Below are positions 52,596 to 59,335 of a stretch of 64,000 nucleotides of DNA, one piece after another. The notes beneath the pieces were generated by a model. The model was not told the DNA's origin. It searched no databases and saw only the letters and a program-made list of their open reading frames with translations. Each line of letters begins with the position of its first letter. Within the stretch, counting starts at the first letter, position 1. The stretch is from Cardiobacteriaceae bacterium TAE3-ERU3 (GTDB lineage: Bacteria > Pseudomonadota > Gammaproteobacteria > Cardiobacteriales > Cardiobacteriaceae), in contig JAHUUI010000001.1 in NCBI GenBank assembly GCA_019218315.1, positions 603,722 through 667,721 on the forward strand. Direction: 5' to 3'. The position numbers and the translations under genes are program-made.

Positions 52596-53966
52596 ATGAA
52601 TACTTCTATTCTCGCACTCATACTTGCAGCCGGTGAAGGCAAACGTATGAAATCTCGCCAATCAAAAGTGATGCAACCAGTAGGTGGCAAGCCAATGCTG
52701 GTGCGTATTCTAGAAACTCTTGGTGGCATTAGTGGCGTAGAACCAGCAGTGATCTATGGGCATATGGGCGACTCCTTAAAAGCCGCGATCACGCCTGATT
52801 ATCCGCAAATTAAGTGGGTTGAGCAGCGTGAACAGCTTGGCACCGGCCATGCAGTGCAGCAGGCGCAGGCACTTATATCAGAAGTTGGGACTGTGTTGGT
52901 CTTACTTGGTGATGTGCCTTTGATTCGCCGAGGGACAATTGAGCAGCTGTGCGCTCAGGCGCAGCAAAGTGGCTTTGCTGTCCTTAGTGCCAAGGTAGAG
53001 AATCCATTTGGTTATGGGCGTATTGTGCGTGATGATCAGGGGCGGGTACTTGGTATCGTCGAGGAAAAAGATGCAACAGATGAGCAGCGCCAAATTCAGG
53101 AAATTAATAGCGGTATTATGGCCTTTTCGGCGGAAGTATTGCAGCGTTACCTTCCTAAGCTCAATAACAATAATGCTCAAGGGGAATACTATTTGACTGA
53201 TCTGGTCGCATTGTGTGCGCAAGATGGTCAAGAAGTTGTAGCCAAAATCGTTGATGAAGCAGATGAAGTGATGGGGGTCAATAATCGGCGCCAATTGGCT
53301 GAAGCTGAAAACGTCCTGCGCCGTCGCGCTGTGGATGCGTTATTTGAAGCAGGGGTCACCTTGATTGATCCTTCACGCATTGATGTGCACGGCAGTGTTC
53401 AAGCTGGAAAAGACGTCATTATTGAAGCCAATGTGCTATTGAAAGGGGAAGTGGTTCTAGGCGATGGTGTTGTCGTTGAGGCTGGATGCGTGCTTGAGGA
53501 TTGCGTGATTGGGGACGAAACATTGGTTCGCAGCCACAGCTGTATTGAAAAGAGCACCATCGGTAAACATGCTTCAATTGGTCCATTTGCAAGAATACGA
53601 CCTAATACAGCGTTATCTGATCGTGCTCGAATTGGGAATTTCGTTGAGACCAAGAATGCGGTGATTGGTGAAGGAAGTAAAGTTAATCATCTGAGCTATA
53701 TTGGCGATGCAGAAGTAGGGGCTGGTGTAAATATTGGCGCCGGTACGATTACGTGCAATTATGACGGCGTCAATAAGTTTAAGACCAAAATTGCTGATGG
53801 CGTGTTTATTGGCTCAAATAGTGCATTGGTTGCACCAATTGAGATCGGAGAGGGTGCCACAGTTGGTGCTGGATCGACGCTGAGCAAAAACGTGTCTGCT
53901 CAATCTTTAGCTTTAACCCGTGCACCTGTTAGAGAAATTAGCGGTTGGCAGAAGCCTAAAAAATAG
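52596..53966 (+). CDS. glmU: Bifunctional GlmU: GlcNAc-1-P uridyltransferase / glucosamine-1-P acetyltransferase
   Basis: 456 residues, like E. coli. The N-terminal pyrophosphorylase domain starts ILALILAAGEGKRMKS with the nucleotide loop, and LGTGHAVQQA follows. The C-terminal domain is a left-handed beta helix of hexapeptide repeats (for example IGDETLVRSHSCIEKSTIG) with the acetyl-CoA-site residues in KTKIADGVFIGSNSALVAP. It makes UDP-GlcNAc for peptidoglycan and LPS. GGAG precedes the start. glmS, next in E. coli, is absent here. Confidence 0.97.
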   Translation: MNTSILALILAAGEGKRMKSRQSKVMQPVGGKPMLVRILETLGGISGVEPAVIYGHMGDSLKAAITPDYPQIKWVEQREQLGTGHAVQQAQALISEVGTVLVLLGDVPLIRRGTIEQLCAQAQQSGFAVLSAKVENPFGYGRIVRDDQGRVLGIVEEKDATDEQRQIQEINSGIMAFSAEVLQRYLPKLNNNNAQGEYYLTDLVALCAQDGQEVVAKIVDEADEVMGVNNRRQLAEAENVLRRRAVDALFEAGVTLIDPSRIDVHGSVQAGKDVIIEANVLLKGEVVLGDGVVVEAGCVLEDCVIGDETLVRSHSCIEKSTIGKHASIGPFARIRPNTALSDRARIGNFVETKNAVIGEGSKVNHLSYIGDAEVGAGVNIGAGTITCNYDGVNKFKTKIADGVFIGSNSALVAPIEIGEGATVGAGSTLSKNVSAQSLALTRAPVREISGWQKPKK

Positions 53967-54067
53967 CATATGTTCCTCATTTATTTGATATTGTGAAATG
54001 TGTCGACGAGTTTATTTTTTCTGAATAAAATTTCTAGGATCATATTATATTTACTGCTCGTAAACAT

Positions 54068-54110
54068 TAAAGGAACTGAATCATTAAGCTTGATTCAGTT
54101 CCTTTATTTT
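54068..54110. terminator. Strong bidirectional terminator
   Basis: Perfect 16-bp inverted repeat TAAAGGAACTGAATCA (54068-54083) / TGATTCAGTTCCTTTA (54091-54106), loop TTAAGCT, followed by TTTT. It separates glmU from the convergent sugar-binding-like lipoprotein gene. Confidence 0.85.
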
Positions 54111-54131
54111 ATGAGCACTACGCAATCAAAG

Positions 54132-55172
54132 TTAGAAGGTTGGTACTTCAGACTTAACTTGGTTGATATTGGTATTTGGTACTTCCCGATATGGAACTGC
54201 AATTTCTTGATAAGAAAGGTGATAATCAGTATTTTTGTTAGCTGGCAAGCCATTAATTAAATTAATGGCTGCTTGGATGCTAACTTCTGCTTGAGTGACG
54301 GCATCATTAAGAACCGTTCCGGCCAACTCACCTTCAGCCATCAGTTTTTCGGCTTCTGGTGTAGCATCTATTCCGAATGTTGGGATGAAAAAATTGTACT
54401 TTCGTTGCGCATCAATAGAGCCGATAGCCATACTGTCGTTATTGGCAAGAATAACTTCAATATTGCGGCTATCAGGATGGTTTAGCCAGCGCTCGGTAAC
54501 TTTATTAGCCTCATCTGAGCTATACATTGCCGTCTCATTGAAAATCTCTTCTACAGGGGTGCCTAATTCGGGATAGCTGGTTAAAGTACTAATGGACCAC
54601 TTGGTTCTTGCAATTGTATTTGCAACGCCAGGAATACCTTGTAACACGGCGTATTGAATTACCCCATCACTGTTGCGATCCCATTCAGGATGGGTATTCC
54701 ATGCACTTAATACTGATAATCCTTGTACGACACCAGCCTGAGTGTTATCACCACCTATAAAAACGGCATTTTTATAACCAAAGAGCTCCGTATCAGAGGG
54801 TTTTCGATCCCAAAATACAACGGGTATATTGGCGTTTCTTGCCATTTGGAGAATTGTGCTAGCTTCACTGGTGTCTACCATATTGACAATTAATGCTTGT
54901 GCACCTTGCTCGACCATTTTCTGTAAGGCCTGAACTTGTGCTTGACTGTCTTCCTCCGCATCGTTAAGTAGAATTTTACTTTCGGGGTGTGTATCGGCAA
55001 AATTTTGATAAACATCATAGCCAGTTTGGAAATAAGGGTTACCTATGGCATTACTGACGGAAACCCCCAGTGTATAGTGCACTTCATCTGTAGTAGTGTC
55101 TGAGGAGGCTATAAAATCATCACAACCCATGAGTGTAAAAAGAGAAATGATAATGATTGACTTGGGGGACAT
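54132..55172 (-). CDS. Galactose-binding-protein-like lipoprotein without a partner transporter
   Basis: 346 residues. The N-terminus MSPKSIIIISLFTLMGC is a lipoprotein signal (lipobox LMGC, C17). Aspartate follows at +2 (CDD), the Lol-avoidance signal that keeps lipoproteins in the inner membrane in E. coli. The rest is a type I periplasmic binding protein close to MglB: TLGVSVSNAIGNPYF, the calcium loop DRNSDGVIQYAVLQG, ILANNDSMAIGSIDAQ and GTVLNDAVTQAE. Compared with MglB as I recall it, residues at two sugar-contact positions differ (GVANT in place of GHPDA), so the ligand may not be galactose. No permease or ATPase genes are adjacent. It is divergent from a membrane CheA-like kinase. Confidence 0.85.
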   Translation of the reverse strand: MSPKSIIIISLFTLMGCDDFIASSDTTTDEVHYTLGVSVSNAIGNPYFQTGYDVYQNFADTHPESKILLNDAEEDSQAQVQALQKMVEQGAQALIVNMVDTSEASTILQMARNANIPVVFWDRKPSDTELFGYKNAVFIGGDNTQAGVVQGLSVLSAWNTHPEWDRNSDGVIQYAVLQGIPGVANTIARTKWSISTLTSYPELGTPVEEIFNETAMYSSDEANKVTERWLNHPDSRNIEVILANNDSMAIGSIDAQRKYNFFIPTFGIDATPEAEKLMAEGELAGTVLNDAVTQAEVSIQAAINLINGLPANKNTDYHLSYQEIAVPYREVPNTNINQVKSEVPTF

Positions 55173-55265
55173 AAAACGCTCTATACTAATGAATCAATAT
55201 TTTCATTGTATTGTATGTTTGAGAGAAGATAAACTAGGGCGGCATATTTGATATTGGGGAAGTTA

Positions 55266-57452
55266 ATGAAAGGTAATGAAGTTGTCTCTACGTATTCCAG
55301 TGATGTAATAGCAAATACATCGCCTTGGAAAAAATACCGCACGATTATCATTTCTGTTGCATTGTTTTTATTTTTTGACCTACTAATTTTGGGGTTGAAC
55401 TTTTATTATTCATTTCTTGTAGAGCGATCAGCCCAGGAAGTCAGTATTGCTGCTAGACAAGGTGTACTGATCCAGCAGATATCTAAAAACCTCAGCGATA
55501 TTAATCTCCTTTCTGTTGTTGAATATGAGAAAAATAGCAGTATGGATATTAGAGAGCTTAAATCACAGGCATTTCGCCAGTTTGATGAGCTCAAGTATGC
55601 AAATAACCTCTTCCAGCAATCTTTGTCAGCACTAAAAAATGGTGGCGAAACCATTGGTGTAGAAGGTCAATTAGTGTCTATTAGTCCCATTGATTTGCCC
55701 CAAGCACACAACCGTTTAACTCAGGCAAATGACATTTGGGAACCCTTTTATGGTCTAAATAATGCCTTCATCAAAGATTATGAAAACAACAACTTTTCCC
55801 TTAGTTCAATTTCATATGCCGCTGAATATGCAAGAATTTATAATATTCGATTACAAGAGGATATGAATGATATCGTACGCATTCTTGAGGATCGGAGTGC
55901 TGGACAGGCAATGGTACTCAGGGTGATACAGGTTGTTGGTATCGTGATTGCACTATTGTTGTTTTTGTTTATTGTATTTCGCGCACTTGGTCAGTTATTT
56001 AAGGCTGATCATGCATTGTCTGATGCACGTCGGGAAACTACAGAAATTTTTGATACAGTGAGTGAGGGTTTATTCCTAATAGATGAAAATCTGCAAATTG
56101 GTTCTCAGCACTCACGAGCACTGCGTCATTTGCTTGGTATTGAGCACATAGCTGGTCGTTCTCTTGAAGATGTTTTGGCTGAAATTGTCTCCCGTCAGGA
56201 TTTGGAAGTCGCGACCGAGTTTATTCAGCAGTTATTTAATCCACGCGTCAAAGCTAAGTTGATTCATGACTTAAATCCGCTTGATCGTGTGCGTGCTGGG
56301 GTCACAGACGAGAGTGGTTTGATTGATGTTCGTTATTTTAAATTCAGCTTTTCACGCGTTTATGAGGGCAAGCAGATTGTTCGCGTGCTTGTTAGCGTTG
56401 CCGATATTTCTAAGACGGTTTTGCTGGAGGAACGCTTGGAACGTGAACGCACGAAAAATGACGAGCAAGTGGAAATGCTGACAGCGATTCTGAAGATTGA
56501 TAATCGCATGATGAGTGACTTTCTACGTAGTACCCAAACGACAACAAAAAATATCAACAATATTTTGCGTGAACAGACGCGCTCTGATGTAGGACTGAAA
56601 GAAAAGGCACGACTTATCTTCCGTGAGACCCATAGCTTGAAAGGGGAAGCTTCTGCAATAGGATTACGCAGCTTTGTGAATATTTTGGAAGATATGGAAT
56701 CTGAGATCAAGCTGTTAAATGATAAGTCAAAATTGGTTGGTGATGACTTTCTTCCATTAGTTGTATCACTAGAAAAATTGATTGCAGTATTGGATCGTGT
56801 AGCTAGCCTAGTTAATAGAATAGGTAGTATGGCTAGTGCAAATACTCAACCAACACAAAGAGCCTCGGCCTCTAATCAGAAGATTATTCCATCACACTTT
56901 GGACACTATTTTAGTCAATTTGCTGAGCAGGTTGCTGAGCGCAATGGCAAACTGGTTAAAGTTGATATTCAAGGATTCGATCAAATTGAAATAAGTGAAC
57001 ACCAAGCTGGTTTAATCAAGGATATTACAGTTCAGCTGATTCGTAATGCGATAGTTCATGGTATCGAGACGCCCAAAGAGCGGATGAGCAAAAATAAGTC
57101 TGAAATTGGTCATATGGGAATTGAATTGAAATCGATGCAAGGTAATGGACAGCTTCAATTAACGGTTGAAGATGATGGGCTGGGTATCGACTTTGCGCTT
57201 ATTCGTGAAAAATTACGTATTGAAAAGCAGCTTTCTGCTCAGGATGCAGAGGCTTTGACCAAGAAAGAGTTATTGATGGCCATATTTCGCTCTGGGTTTT
57301 CGACTTTGCAACACAGTAGTGAGGATGCAGGTCGTGGTGTAGGTATGGATGTAGTTAGAGCACGAATTCTAGAATTGGATGGAAGAATAAATATACAAAG
57401 TGAGCGGGATCTGTATACTCGTTTTGTAATACGCTTTGCCACTGCAAGCTAG
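55266..57452 (+). CDS. Membrane-bound CheA-like histidine kinase (PilJ-like sensor, PAS, HPt, CheA-type ATPase)
   Basis: 728 residues from the ATG at 55266 after GGGGA; the TTG at 55248 is less likely. Membrane spans lie near 25-48 and 218-240. The segment between (about 50-215) faces the periplasm, is helical and starts like PilJ/NarX-type sensors (SIAARQGVLIQQISKNLSD). A PAS-like domain (about 257-390) and a coiled coil (385-405) follow. An HPt domain (about 405-520) has H456 in IFRETHSLKGEASAIGL. A CheA-type ATPase (about 545-728) shows the N box QLIRNAIVHGIETP, G1 EDDGLGID and G2 AGRGVGMDVV. There is no CheW-like P5 domain and almost no P3 dimerisation domain. Kinase and receptor thus seem joined in one chain. 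Confidence 0.88.
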   Translation: MKGNEVVSTYSSDVIANTSPWKKYRTIIISVALFLFFDLLILGLNFYYSFLVERSAQEVSIAARQGVLIQQISKNLSDINLLSVVEYEKNSSMDIRELKSQAFRQFDELKYANNLFQQSLSALKNGGETIGVEGQLVSISPIDLPQAHNRLTQANDIWEPFYGLNNAFIKDYENNNFSLSSISYAAEYARIYNIRLQEDMNDIVRILEDRSAGQAMVLRVIQVVGIVIALLLFLFIVFRALGQLFKADHALSDARRETTEIFDTVSEGLFLIDENLQIGSQHSRALRHLLGIEHIAGRSLEDVLAEIVSRQDLEVATEFIQQLFNPRVKAKLIHDLNPLDRVRAGVTDESGLIDVRYFKFSFSRVYEGKQIVRVLVSVADISKTVLLEERLERERTKNDEQVEMLTAILKIDNRMMSDFLRSTQTTTKNINNILREQTRSDVGLKEKARLIFRETHSLKGEASAIGLRSFVNILEDMESEIKLLNDKSKLVGDDFLPLVVSLEKLIAVLDRVASLVNRIGSMASANTQPTQRASASNQKIIPSHFGHYFSQFAEQVAERNGKLVKVDIQGFDQIEISEHQAGLIKDITVQLIRNAIVHGIETPKERMSKNKSEIGHMGIELKSMQGNGQLQLTVEDDGLGIDFALIREKLRIEKQLSAQDAEALTKKELLMAIFRSGFSTLQHSSEDAGRGVGMDVVRARILELDGRINIQSERDLYTRFVIRFATAS

Positions 57453-57461
57453 GGATAAGTG

Positions 57462-57821
57462 ATGTATAAATTGATGGTCGTTGATGACTCTAATATCATT
57501 CGCAATCAAATTGCTAGGATGCAAAAAGATAAGCAGTTTGAGATTGTCGCAAAAGCACGTAATGGGCTTGAAGCAATTAAATTTGCAAAAGTGCATCGGC
57601 CTGACGTTGTGACGATGGATTTAACTATGCCAGAGATGGGCGGATTAGAATGTATCAAGGCTCTGGTTGCAGATAATCCGAAGATCTTAATTCTGGTCAT
57701 TTCTGCATTGTCAGATAAAACAACAGGTATTCGTGCGCTTAGTTTGGGTGCGAGTGGGTTTTTATGTAAGCCATTTACAGAAGAAGAACTTCTTGATGCA
57801 CTACAAGAGTTGGTAAATTAG
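57462..57821 (+). CDS. Single-domain CheY-like response regulator
   Basis: 119 residues from the ATG at 57462, six bases after AGGGA; a GTG three bases before is too close. Receiver domain only: acidic pair D8-D9 (MVVDDSN), phospho-acceptor D53 (VTMDLTMPEMGG), switch serine S81 (ISAL) and lysine K103 (CKPF). It lies nine bases after the CheA-like kinase and two bases before CheX. It has no DNA-binding or enzymatic output, so it should act by protein contact, for example on a motility or pilus machine. Confidence 0.92.
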   Translation: MYKLMVVDDSNIIRNQIARMQKDKQFEIVAKARNGLEAIKFAKVHRPDVVTMDLTMPEMGGLECIKALVADNPKILILVISALSDKTTGIRALSLGASGFLCKPFTEEELLDALQELVN

Positions 57822-57823
57822 TT

Positions 57824-58282
57824 ATGTTAGAAGAAAAGCGCTTTCAAGTATTTATTAATAGTGTAAATCGCTATTTTTATGAAGTGAACAAAGTCAATGT
57901 CAAGGTTGGTACACCATATTTGGTGAAAAATAACACACCTGCGTTACAAGCTTATACAGGTATTATTGGAATTTCAGGGCCATACCGTGGTTCTGTTTAT
58001 TTCACTGCTCCGCGGATCTTGCTCAGACACTTGCTACTTTCACTTCAAGAGCCTGATGAATCAGAAGAGAATATCTTAGATTTAATTGGGGAAATAGCAA
58101 ATACAATCTCAGGTAATGCACGTACTGAATACGGTGCTGACTTTATGATATCTGTTCCAGTAGTTGTGAAAGGTACTCCTGATCAGATTTACTTACCAAA
58201 GACAGCGCGTAGCTTTGTGATACCAATCACCTGGAAGGAATACACGGCAGCGATTGTAGTCAGCCTTGAGAGAGGTAGTTAA
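57824..58282 (+). CDS. cheX: CheX-family CheY-P phosphatase
   Basis: 152 residues. The CheC/CheX/FliY active-site signature E-x2-N is present in LDLIGEIANTISGNARTEYG (E90, N93), followed by P112 in SVPVVV at about the expected spacing. The fold order (SGPYRGSVYFTAP strand pair, helix, long active helix, terminal strands WKEYTAAIVVSL) matches CheX. It would dephosphorylate the adjacent CheY-like protein and so reset the signal. This gives the operon a kinase, a regulator and a phosphatase in order. Confidence 0.85.
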   Translation: MLEEKRFQVFINSVNRYFYEVNKVNVKVGTPYLVKNNTPALQAYTGIIGISGPYRGSVYFTAPRILLRHLLLSLQEPDESEENILDLIGEIANTISGNARTEYGADFMISVPVVVKGTPDQIYLPKTARSFVIPITWKEYTAAIVVSLERGS

Positions 58283-58340
58283 AAGGTATTGTTTGTGGAC
58301 TTTACCGCGAACAACGGCTAGTATCTAACACGATTTACGA

Positions 58341-58413
58341 ATGGCATTGGGGCGCGGACTATTTTCTGCCAACCCCATTAACAAATAAACCTGCGGCCTG
58401 TTTCGTCGCAAGG
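58341..58413 (+). promoter_or_regulatory. Structured leader of the VUT transporter operon
   Basis: The region before the VUT gene can form two hairpins: TGGGG (58348-58352) with CCCCA (58373-58377), enclosing GGC/GCC pairs; and CCTGCG (58390-58395) with CGCA-AGG (58407-58413), ending just before the ribosome site. AATGG (58340-58344) can compete for CCATT (58375-58379). In a queuosine-precursor operon a preQ1-type riboswitch is possible, but it does not match the preQ1-I core I remember. Confidence 0.3.
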
Positions 58414-58424
58414 TGAGGAACACA

Positions 58425-58973
58425 ATGAACAAAACTCTCTCCCCATCGGGGTGGCAGCTGCCATGCCTGATTGCCTTATATGTTGGTGCGATTTTACTCG
58501 CTAACCTTACGCTTGATGATTTTATACCATTGCCGGGCTATGGGCTTCTGAGTATCGGTACTATCTTTTTTGCGGCCATTTTCACCTTGCGTGACCGTAT
58601 TCATAGGGTAGGTGGTGTATGCAGCGTCTTCATTGCCATTACGTTGGCTGTGATCATCAATACCGTCACAGCCGGTGTTCTTGATACGCCAATTCGCTTT
58701 ATTTGTGCGTCGTTTATCGCTATTTTGTTTGGTGAGCTGGCTGATACGGCGGTATATCATCGTCTACTGCACCGTAGCTGGGCGTTACGCGTTGTGGCTA
58801 GTAATGCCGTCAGCGTGCCACTCGATAGCGTGTTATTCACTTTGCTGGCATTTTATGGTGATTTGTCCGGCGCTGAAATTGCACAGATTATTTTTGCTGA
58901 TATCGCCGTTAAATACTCGATTTCTTTGTTGTTTATGTTGCGTTTGCGTTCATCTCGAGTGGTGAACATATAA
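58425..58973 (+). CDS. VUT-family (YhhQ-like) queuosine-precursor transporter
   Basis: 182 residues from the ATG at 58425, four bases after GAGGAA. Six predicted membrane spans. The family (VUT, DUF165) is typified by E. coli YhhQ, which takes up preQ0 and preQ1. Signatures are LYVGAILLANLTLDDFI near the start, LGELADT-type motif (ILFGELADTAVYHRLL) with its conserved acid, and SNAVSVPLDSVLFTLLAF. It is short compared with YhhQ (221). The next gene starts with a one-base overlap (TAATG) and is a QueF-family T-fold protein, which supports a queuosine role. Confidence 0.8.
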   Translation: MNKTLSPSGWQLPCLIALYVGAILLANLTLDDFIPLPGYGLLSIGTIFFAAIFTLRDRIHRVGGVCSVFIAITLAVIINTVTAGVLDTPIRFICASFIAILFGELADTAVYHRLLHRSWALRVVASNAVSVPLDSVLFTLLAFYGDLSGAEIAQIIFADIAVKYSISLLFMLRLRSSRVVNI

Positions 58974-59335
58974 TGGAGGCGCCTACTATTCCCCGACTCA
59001 AAACAATTGAGAATACAAAGCCACAGATGCGCATGAGTATCGAGCACGTTCTTCTGCTGCCTGAATTGTGTCCAGCATCCAAAAACCCCAAGCAAGGCAG
59101 TACGCTGACTTTGCAATACGATGCAGGTGCGCAGCTTTTAGAGTTATTCAGCCTCGATAAATATATCAATGCCTATATTGGTCATCCAATTGTGCGTGAT
59201 ATGGAGTTTTTCACCCAAACTGTGGCGCAGGACGCCGCAGATGCGTTGGGTTGTGAGGTCTCAGCGACTGCTGAGCTGGCGTATAACATGATCGCTCAAC
59301 GCCAGCGTATCGTGGTCATCGCACAAGCGAGCTAA
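58973..59335 (+). CDS. QueF-family T-fold protein with degenerate reductase motif
   Basis: 120 residues. I align it with QueF (preQ0 reductase): LPELCPASKNPKQGSTLTLQY matches the catalytic-cysteine strand (LCPxTxQPDFxT in QueF), and LLELFSLDKYINAY matches the NADPH motif ESKSLKLYL. The cysteine is kept, as is a glutamate near the HED position (RDMEFF). But the ESK(S/A)xK(L/Y) motif reads ELFSLDKY, and the conserved aspartate after the cysteine is missing. It may thus bind a 7-deazaguanine without reducing it, or catalyse something else, as QueF-like amidinotransferases do in archaea. Coupled to the VUT transporter. Confidence 0.65.
   Translation: MEAPTIPRLKTIENTKPQMRMSIEHVLLLPELCPASKNPKQGSTLTLQYDAGAQLLELFSLDKYINAYIGHPIVRDMEFFTQTVAQDAADALGCEVSATAELAYNMIAQRQRIVVIAQAS

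Follow-up and report, generated by a model that had tools for sequence, protein, structure and literature searches.

The kinase CheA is normally described by its coupling to receptor arrays through a CheW domain, and the components of the Pil-Chp system include the receptor PilJ, ChpA, and PilG/PilH. Among systems that adjoin or take their input from binding proteins, XylFII-LytS (reportedly described by Li et al. in 2017) and the Pseudomonas aeruginosa kinases linked to solute-binding protein (sbp) genes are ordinary sensor kinases. One survey reports a CheW domain in 100% of the CheA sequences that it covers (PMC10782961), a review already considers activation of PilJ via a solute-binding protein (PMC12632253), P. 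aeruginosa kinases are encoded next to their own sbp genes (PMC11113362), and the paper on McpN lists XylFII-LytS in a table as a binding-protein-activated system, reports direct binding of nitrate by the PilJ-type domain of McpN, and gives the definition of an N-box through which PilJ domains bind nitrate (PMC6381276). Here, we describe a four-gene unit at positions 54132-58282 of a 64,000-nucleotide stretch of contig JAHUUI010000001.1 from Cardiobacteriaceae bacterium TAE3-ERU3 (the whole stretch is called the window below), which, judging from sequence and structural models, is probably an array-free, chemosensory-like pathway of a lipoprotein, a sensor-fused kinase, CheY, and CheX, with a non-flagellar machine as its most likely output. 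A description of such a unit was not found in the open-license literature, a search outside which most subscription papers fall.

The unit consists of a lipoprotein gene on the minus strand and a divergent kinase-CheY-CheX set on the plus strand, and all four genes were found where an earlier sequence-only reading had placed them:

54132..55172, minus strand: lipoprotein, periplasmic binding-protein-like, 346 amino acids, lipobox LMGC17 (Pfam and lipobox pattern)
55173..55265, no strand: divergent intergenic region common to both directions (promoter region)
55266..57452, plus strand: receptor-fused CheA-type kinase, 728 amino acids (open reading frame [ORF] open from TTG 55248)
57462..57821, plus strand: CheY-like single-domain response regulator, D53 (alternative start GTG 57459 possible)
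57824..58282, plus strand: predicted CheX phosphatase, E90/N93 (Pfam and motif)

Like CheA, the unit has an Hpt phospho-acceptor, a CheA-type P4 ATPase, a CheY partner, and a CheX phosphatase, but its kinase carries two transmembrane (TM) helices and its own sensor and has neither a P2 nor a P5/CheW domain by Pfam. With Pil-Chp it shares a CheA-type engine and, as far as the model suggests, a PilJ-like periplasmic fold; unlike Pil-Chp, it joins receptor and kinase in one chain, lacks CheW and the signaling domain of methyl-accepting chemotaxis proteins (MCPs), includes CheX, and also occurs in genomes in which neither MCP nor CheW was found. As in XylFII-LytS type kinases, a binding-protein gene adjoins the gene of a TM kinase whose periplasmic part is a four-helix bundle, but the window engine is CheA-type and is paired with CheX and a single-domain CheY. 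The kinase is laid out as follows:

55341..55397, plus strand: TM1, about residues 26-44 (hydropathy)
55398..55940, plus strand: periplasmic four-helix bundle and beta-hairpin, PilJ-like, modeled residues 45-225, the end extending into TM2 (model)
55440..55475, plus strand: position of the nitrate N-box, degenerate, VSIAARQGVLIQ, residues 59-70 (pattern from PMC6381276)
55923..55979, plus strand: TM2, about residues 220-238 (hydropathy)
55998..56441, plus strand: PAS-like region, about residues 245-392 (from the modeled secondary structure; Pfam silent in the window protein)
56508..56717, plus strand: Hpt domain, residues 415-484, with the phospho-acceptor H456 at 56631-56633 assigned by motif
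56883..57446, plus strand: CheA P4-type ATPase, residues 540-727, with no P5/CheW after it (structural alignment)

The P4 region aligns with the P4 domain of CheA (8oyq) at a Z score of 23.3 (2.2 Å over 174 aligned residues), and CheA chains overall score from 20.4 to 23.3, against 16.1 for the top non-CheA kinase. Pfam matches Hpt at an E value of 1.6e-5 (just above the cut-off) and HATPase_c at 3.5e-11. The ATG start at 55266 has GGGGA shortly 5' of it, and, counted from that start, the Hpt histidine is H456, which is invariant in a 10-sequence alignment that includes the window protein and also in a 49-member alignment (52 kinases minus L160, L166, and L168, which are divergent or partial; kinases shorter than 600 amino acids, such as the L106 and L169 pieces, are outside it). 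Strict N, G1, and G2 patterns occur in 86, 91, and 92 of 97 kinase ORFs, fragments and divergent members counted. With the Hpt histidine and the ATPase motifs intact, the kinase is predicted from its motifs to be active, contrary to the refutation by an inactive kinase domain that had been envisaged. Two divergent second kinase copies elsewhere (L166:4535-6538 and L168:4794-6776) show no H-box pattern, have no CheY or CheX nearby, and are possibly inactive or changed in role.

Little follows the ATPase: the window kinase stops 34 residues past M694 of the G2 box, and the tail after G2 measures 19 to 53 residues in the 92 ORFs in which G2 was found. A Pfam scan of the 49 aligned kinases, window included, detected Hpt and HATPase_c in all 49, PilJ (PF13675) in 16, and PAS_4 in 1, and found the P5/CheW domain (PF01584) and the MCP signaling domain (PF00015) in none; Pfam likewise found no P2 domain in the kinases scanned. 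There is no P3 model among the 18 Pfam families found, and alignments to P3-P4 chains start at P4; a profile match to 4xiv extends into its P3 part. Because the CheW domain is missing, the kinase does not fit the published description of CheA (PMC10782961), and an ordinary CheA was rejected as its identity on the same 49/49 absence. The combination of TM helices, periplasmic sensor, Hpt, and P4 in one chain, with no MCP domain, supports the claim that kinase and receptor are fused. Of the PAS domain called from the sequence, an alpha/beta region at residues 268-380 of the full kinase model remains, a region that is PAS-like only, given a PAS_4 match in a single kinase.

An AlphaFold model of the periplasmic domain of the window kinase, built with 37 of the 52 kinase sequences, has a predicted local distance difference test score of 95.7 and aligns with solved PilJ (7zjr, Z 15.1, 2.7 Å, 138 aligned residues, 20% identity; 8wdf, Z 14.3, 2.0 Å, 130 aligned) and, at Z 13.1, with the LytS domain in the solved structure of XylFII-LytS (5xsj). 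Two results weigh against the assignment: the top structural match is to Vc1313, a different chemoreceptor domain (Z 15.5), with designed bundles reaching 13.9, and Foldseek alone returned nothing from the PDB at an E value of 0.001 or better. The LytS match is not distinctive, because other bundles score as high and the structure-alignment tool cautions below a Z of about 13 for helical bundles; the PilJ match is suggestive. The periplasmic region had been called PilJ-like from the sequence, a label favored by the model and by PF13675 in relatives and lacking a Pfam match in the window protein itself.

Downstream of the kinase, CheY (Pfam Response_reg, E 8.8e-28) keeps D8, D9, D53, S81, and K103 (numbered from 57462), and CheX (Pfam CheX, E 1.4e-24), the only CheX of the window genome, keeps E90 and N93 of the ExxN motif, presumably its functional motif; both residues are invariant in seven sequences and align with the E and N of 3iic.

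To place the unit among relatives, we consider two sets of loci. Among the best 80 of 431 confirmed loci of a named scan, many of them from Psychrobacter and the others from Moraxella, Neisseria, Alysiella, Cellvibrio, Dichelobacter, and further hosts, CheY is present in 80/80 and CheX in 66/80. An independent set of 370 genomes, sampled evenly over the class with three candidates scored per genome, contains at least 12 with the kinase; kinase, CheY, and CheX lie together in 12/14 loci by tblastn, the remaining two being L166 and L168, and an ORF caller places CheY beside 11/15 kinases and CheX beside 11/15. Within the window's family, 7/11 other genomes have a full-length kinase relative (36-42% identity) and 4 have none. 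No plasmid-borne relative was found at an E value of 1e-40. Of 28 kinase-bearing genomes, 27 have a CheX somewhere (the exception being a 1.1-Mb assembly), and a kinase copy with no CheX beside it usually has one elsewhere in its genome. Two CheX genes follow 39/81 named kinases, mainly in Psychrobacter (loci L054-L123), the doubled copies being about 48-51% and 41-45% identical to the window CheX. The unit is thus co-conserved, and the envisaged refutation by a lack of co-conservation fails; the sequence-only reading needs the amendment that its four genes represent a single version of a wider module, in which the binding protein is sugar-type, amino-acid-type, or absent. On the whole, the earlier observation holds, and most of its central idea is supported.

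A binding-protein gene stands upstream of 54/81 named kinases, usually within about 120 nucleotides, and belongs to Peripla_BP_4 (sugar-type) in 14 cases and to SBP_bac_3 (amino-acid-type) in 40, with the Pfam type confirmed on 9 of these proteins; neither type is found upstream of the other 27, of which at least L095 and L106 are at contig ends. Lipobox patterns are present in 39/40 amino-acid-type and 13/18 sugar-type partners. The binding protein is, on this distribution, apparently an exchangeable input of one engine: sugar-type, amino-acid-type, or none. In Cardiobacteriaceae loci L040-L042, two to four sugar-type copies lie in a row or nearly so; a single kinase is preceded by three MglB-like proteins in L040:5854-9366 and by four in L041:2986-8480, the nearest being soluble-looking and without a lipobox.

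The clearest case of exchange comes from one Moraxella genome with two tandem kinases (L050) that are sisters in the core tree (70 rows after dropping 4 duplicate genomes and near-copies) and yet have periplasmic domains only 15% identical. Compared with its tandem sister, kinase L050_7001 is 70/85/78% identical in PAS/Hpt/P4 and 15/23% in periplasmic domain/TM2; compared with L059, which has an MglB-type partner, it is 43/61% identical in periplasmic domain/TM2 and 39/44/35% in PAS/Hpt/P4, placing the switch of lineage between about residues 220 and 250. The binding protein of L050_7001 is, in turn, 55-62% identical to those of four Moraxella loci with MglB-type partners. By these comparisons, L050_7001 is a natural chimera with the sensor and binding protein of one lineage and the engine of another, and, since both sensor and partner match one lineage, they were most simply exchanged as one block. 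This co-exchange supports a link between the lipoprotein and the sensor domain of the kinase. More broadly, among 30 partnered kinases compared at core identities below 50%, the periplasmic identity of same-type pairs lies 9.6 points above that of mixed pairs, a difference reached in 0/2000 label shuffles.

Several observations pull the other way. The label shuffle ignores kinship. CheX is missing from 14/80 named loci, some of them on short contigs, and 5/18 sugar-type partners have no lipobox (two are split ORFs from one genome seen twice, and the L040, L041, and L124 partners look soluble). Neither binding-protein type is upstream of 5/9 other kinase copies in the family (L037, L038, L039, L043, and L044) or of any of the 15 class-sample kinases, making the binding-protein input optional, and the loci read show the partnership nowhere but in Moraxellaceae, Neisseriaceae, and Cardiobacteriaceae. 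The Rappaport relative has its binding-protein gene broken into two ORFs (L036:5485-6500) and, in a second unit copy, a kinase gene that is greatly shortened (L045:7488-9775); as they read, these are decay or assembly errors.

The window lipoprotein itself matches Pfam Peripla_BP_4 (E 9.1e-46), and its nearest solved protein is the glucose/galactose-binding protein. The host has its own MglB, 34.5% identical to the lipoprotein, in what reads as an mglBAC operon on a different contig (L133; its permease assigned by Pfam, its MglB by PDB matches, its ATPase by sequence reading). Over 11 residues that we take to be the MglB sugar contacts, this MglB keeps 11/11 and the lipoprotein 4/11. The likeness to MglB thus extends to the family match, five Ca-loop residues, and R158, N211, D236, and N256; the differences are the seven altered contacts and the lack of adjoining transporter genes, the gene's neighbors being glmU and the kinase. 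On these two differences, we rejected the MglB of an ATP-binding cassette importer as its identity. The lipoprotein is predicted to be a second, transporter-free, divergent MglB paralog, and its ligand is probably related to, yet different from, the sugar of MglB.

In the pathway that we propose, the ligand-loaded lipoprotein would dock on the periplasmic bundle, by analogy with XylFII on LytS, and the signal would pass through TM2 and the PAS-like region to the engine. P4 would phosphorylate H456, the phosphate would move from H456 to D53 of CheY, and CheX would strip it from CheY~P. Other members would take their input from amino-acid-type binding proteins or sense nitrate-like ligands directly. 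CheY~P would bind a machine other than the flagellum, for which type IV pili are the leading candidate.

The output is where this scheme meets its strongest competitor, that the pathway operates as described and the target of CheY~P is metabolism, a second messenger, or a protein kinase and not type IV pili, a version that we hold to be almost evenly balanced with its opposite. FliM is found in 0/36 non-Cellvibrio hosts (and in 3/3 Cellvibrio), so the flagellar motor is not a general target, and PilT is found in all 36 of the same hosts, a pairing that argues weakly against a non-pilus output by leaving pili as the best-known moving machine. PilT is also found in 317/370 class genomes, 12/12 of those with the kinase included (Fisher p 0.23), and its model scores above the cut-off in 5/14 control genomes, Escherichia coli among them; being so common across the class, it is uninformative about the output, and the prediction that the pathway controls type IV pili or metabolism is not borne out by a co-occurrence that does not discriminate. 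In favor of the non-pilus version are a receiver-Ser/Thr kinase gene immediately after CheX in a distant relative (L156:8113-9357) and a PP2C-Ser/Thr kinase gene next to the unit of another (L157:1500-3212), each a possible output, and a Cardiobacteriaceae unit with two MglB-like proteins amid genes that, by sequence reading, resemble nucleoside salvage (L042:123-11363); such neighbors were not seen in the other loci read. Type IV pili are kept as a plausible leading candidate. A further unit copy lies downstream of a gene reading like deoB (L038:5324-9415), and the ligand could be nucleoside-related.

Much less probable is that the kinase senses alone and the lipoprotein is merely a neighbor or a relic of transport. 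The 27 named kinases with no binding-protein gene upstream speak for it, as does direct nitrate binding by the PilJ-type domain of McpN (PMC6381276), together with some unpartnered kinases in which the N-box is intact. The exact N-box pattern is intact in 13/39 non-redundant unpartnered kinases and in 0/30 partnered ones (Fisher p 3e-4), a distribution that itself tells against lone sensing in partnered kinases, as do two different binding-protein families at the same place and the joint change of sensor and binding protein at L050. The family's likeness to McpN lies in those 13 kinases; McpN differs in being an MCP, and the window kinase in having the N-box remnant VSIAARQGVLIQ. We infer that in partnered families the direct pocket may have been lost, with binding proteins taking over the input. 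A point against reading the contrast at face value is that N-box and partner type are both clustered on the core tree, so that the N-box and partner contrasts represent few independent events.

Equally improbable is that CheY and CheX serve a Pil-Chp array to which the kinase is an accessory input, a proposal favored by the single MCP of the window genome and by the 14 Moraxella/Psychrobacter hosts (one MCP in 13, two in one) and opposed by the distribution of CheX in the family and by the 18 hosts showing neither MCP nor CheW. In the window genome, the MCP and three CheW-domain matches all fall within about 10 kb of each other in a cluster that we take to be Pil-Chp; a search of the genome with the kinase gives no match beyond the kinase itself and that cluster's long ChpA-like frame. 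Across the window's family, CheX occurs in 8/8 genomes with the kinase and in 0/4 without it, all 4 of which have an MCP (Fisher p 0.002); CheX therefore belongs to this unit, and CheX and CheY as Pil-Chp parts are disfavored by presence and absence over the 12 family genomes. Searches of 49 genomes found no MCP in 18, of which 14 are Neisseriaceae and 4 Cardiobacteriaceae, and CheW was not found in the same 18, in a search in which two hosts with an MCP gave two CheW matches each. An array is apparently not needed in every host. These absences are mostly from draft assemblies, and the Cardiobacteriaceae genomes G008 and G010 are 72% and 78% complete, with an MCP in G007, the congener of G010; at least four of the 14 MCP-less Neisseriaceae are named isolates, and 4/8 kinase-bearing family genomes show no MCP. 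The suggestion that an MCP/CheW set elsewhere in the genome is the real partner of CheY and CheX thus fails as a general rule.

Around the unit, in the 2.41-Mb host genome, no MCP or CheW gene is nearby, as had been noted from the sequence; the MCP/CheW cluster is about 550 kb away. The boundary with glmU is marked by one further feature:

54068..54106, no strand: terminator-like 16-pair hairpin with a T tail, lying between the lipoprotein gene and glmU and setting the unit apart from the latter

Terminator-like sites in 53900-58600 are barely in excess (5, against a shuffle mean of 3.0 with a standard deviation of 2.0), promoter-like matches in the same interval are at chance level (13 against 13.4 expected, with no excess over shuffles), and no tRNA genes were found in the window. 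The gene pair 3' of CheX (58413-59335) matches a vitamin/queuosine-precursor transporter family, with a QueF match far below the cut-off.

Taken at its widest, the family may form a distinct receptor-fused, array-free class, with one CheA-type engine whose sensor is swapped together with a sugar-type or amino-acid-type binding protein or given over to direct sensing of nitrate-like ligands. Many non-flagellated Neisseriaceae and some Cardiobacteriaceae would have no other chemosensory pathway, and in them it would steer type IV pili, a broader proposal that we regard as tentative and rather doubtful as a whole. A CheA-type engine with its own receptor would show how little chemosensory signaling needs and how binding proteins can replace direct sensing, and the natural chimera marks where sensors can be exchanged, which is useful for sensor building. 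For bacteria that showed neither MCP nor CheW in the searches, the unit would be a candidate route to a nutrient response, perhaps via pili.

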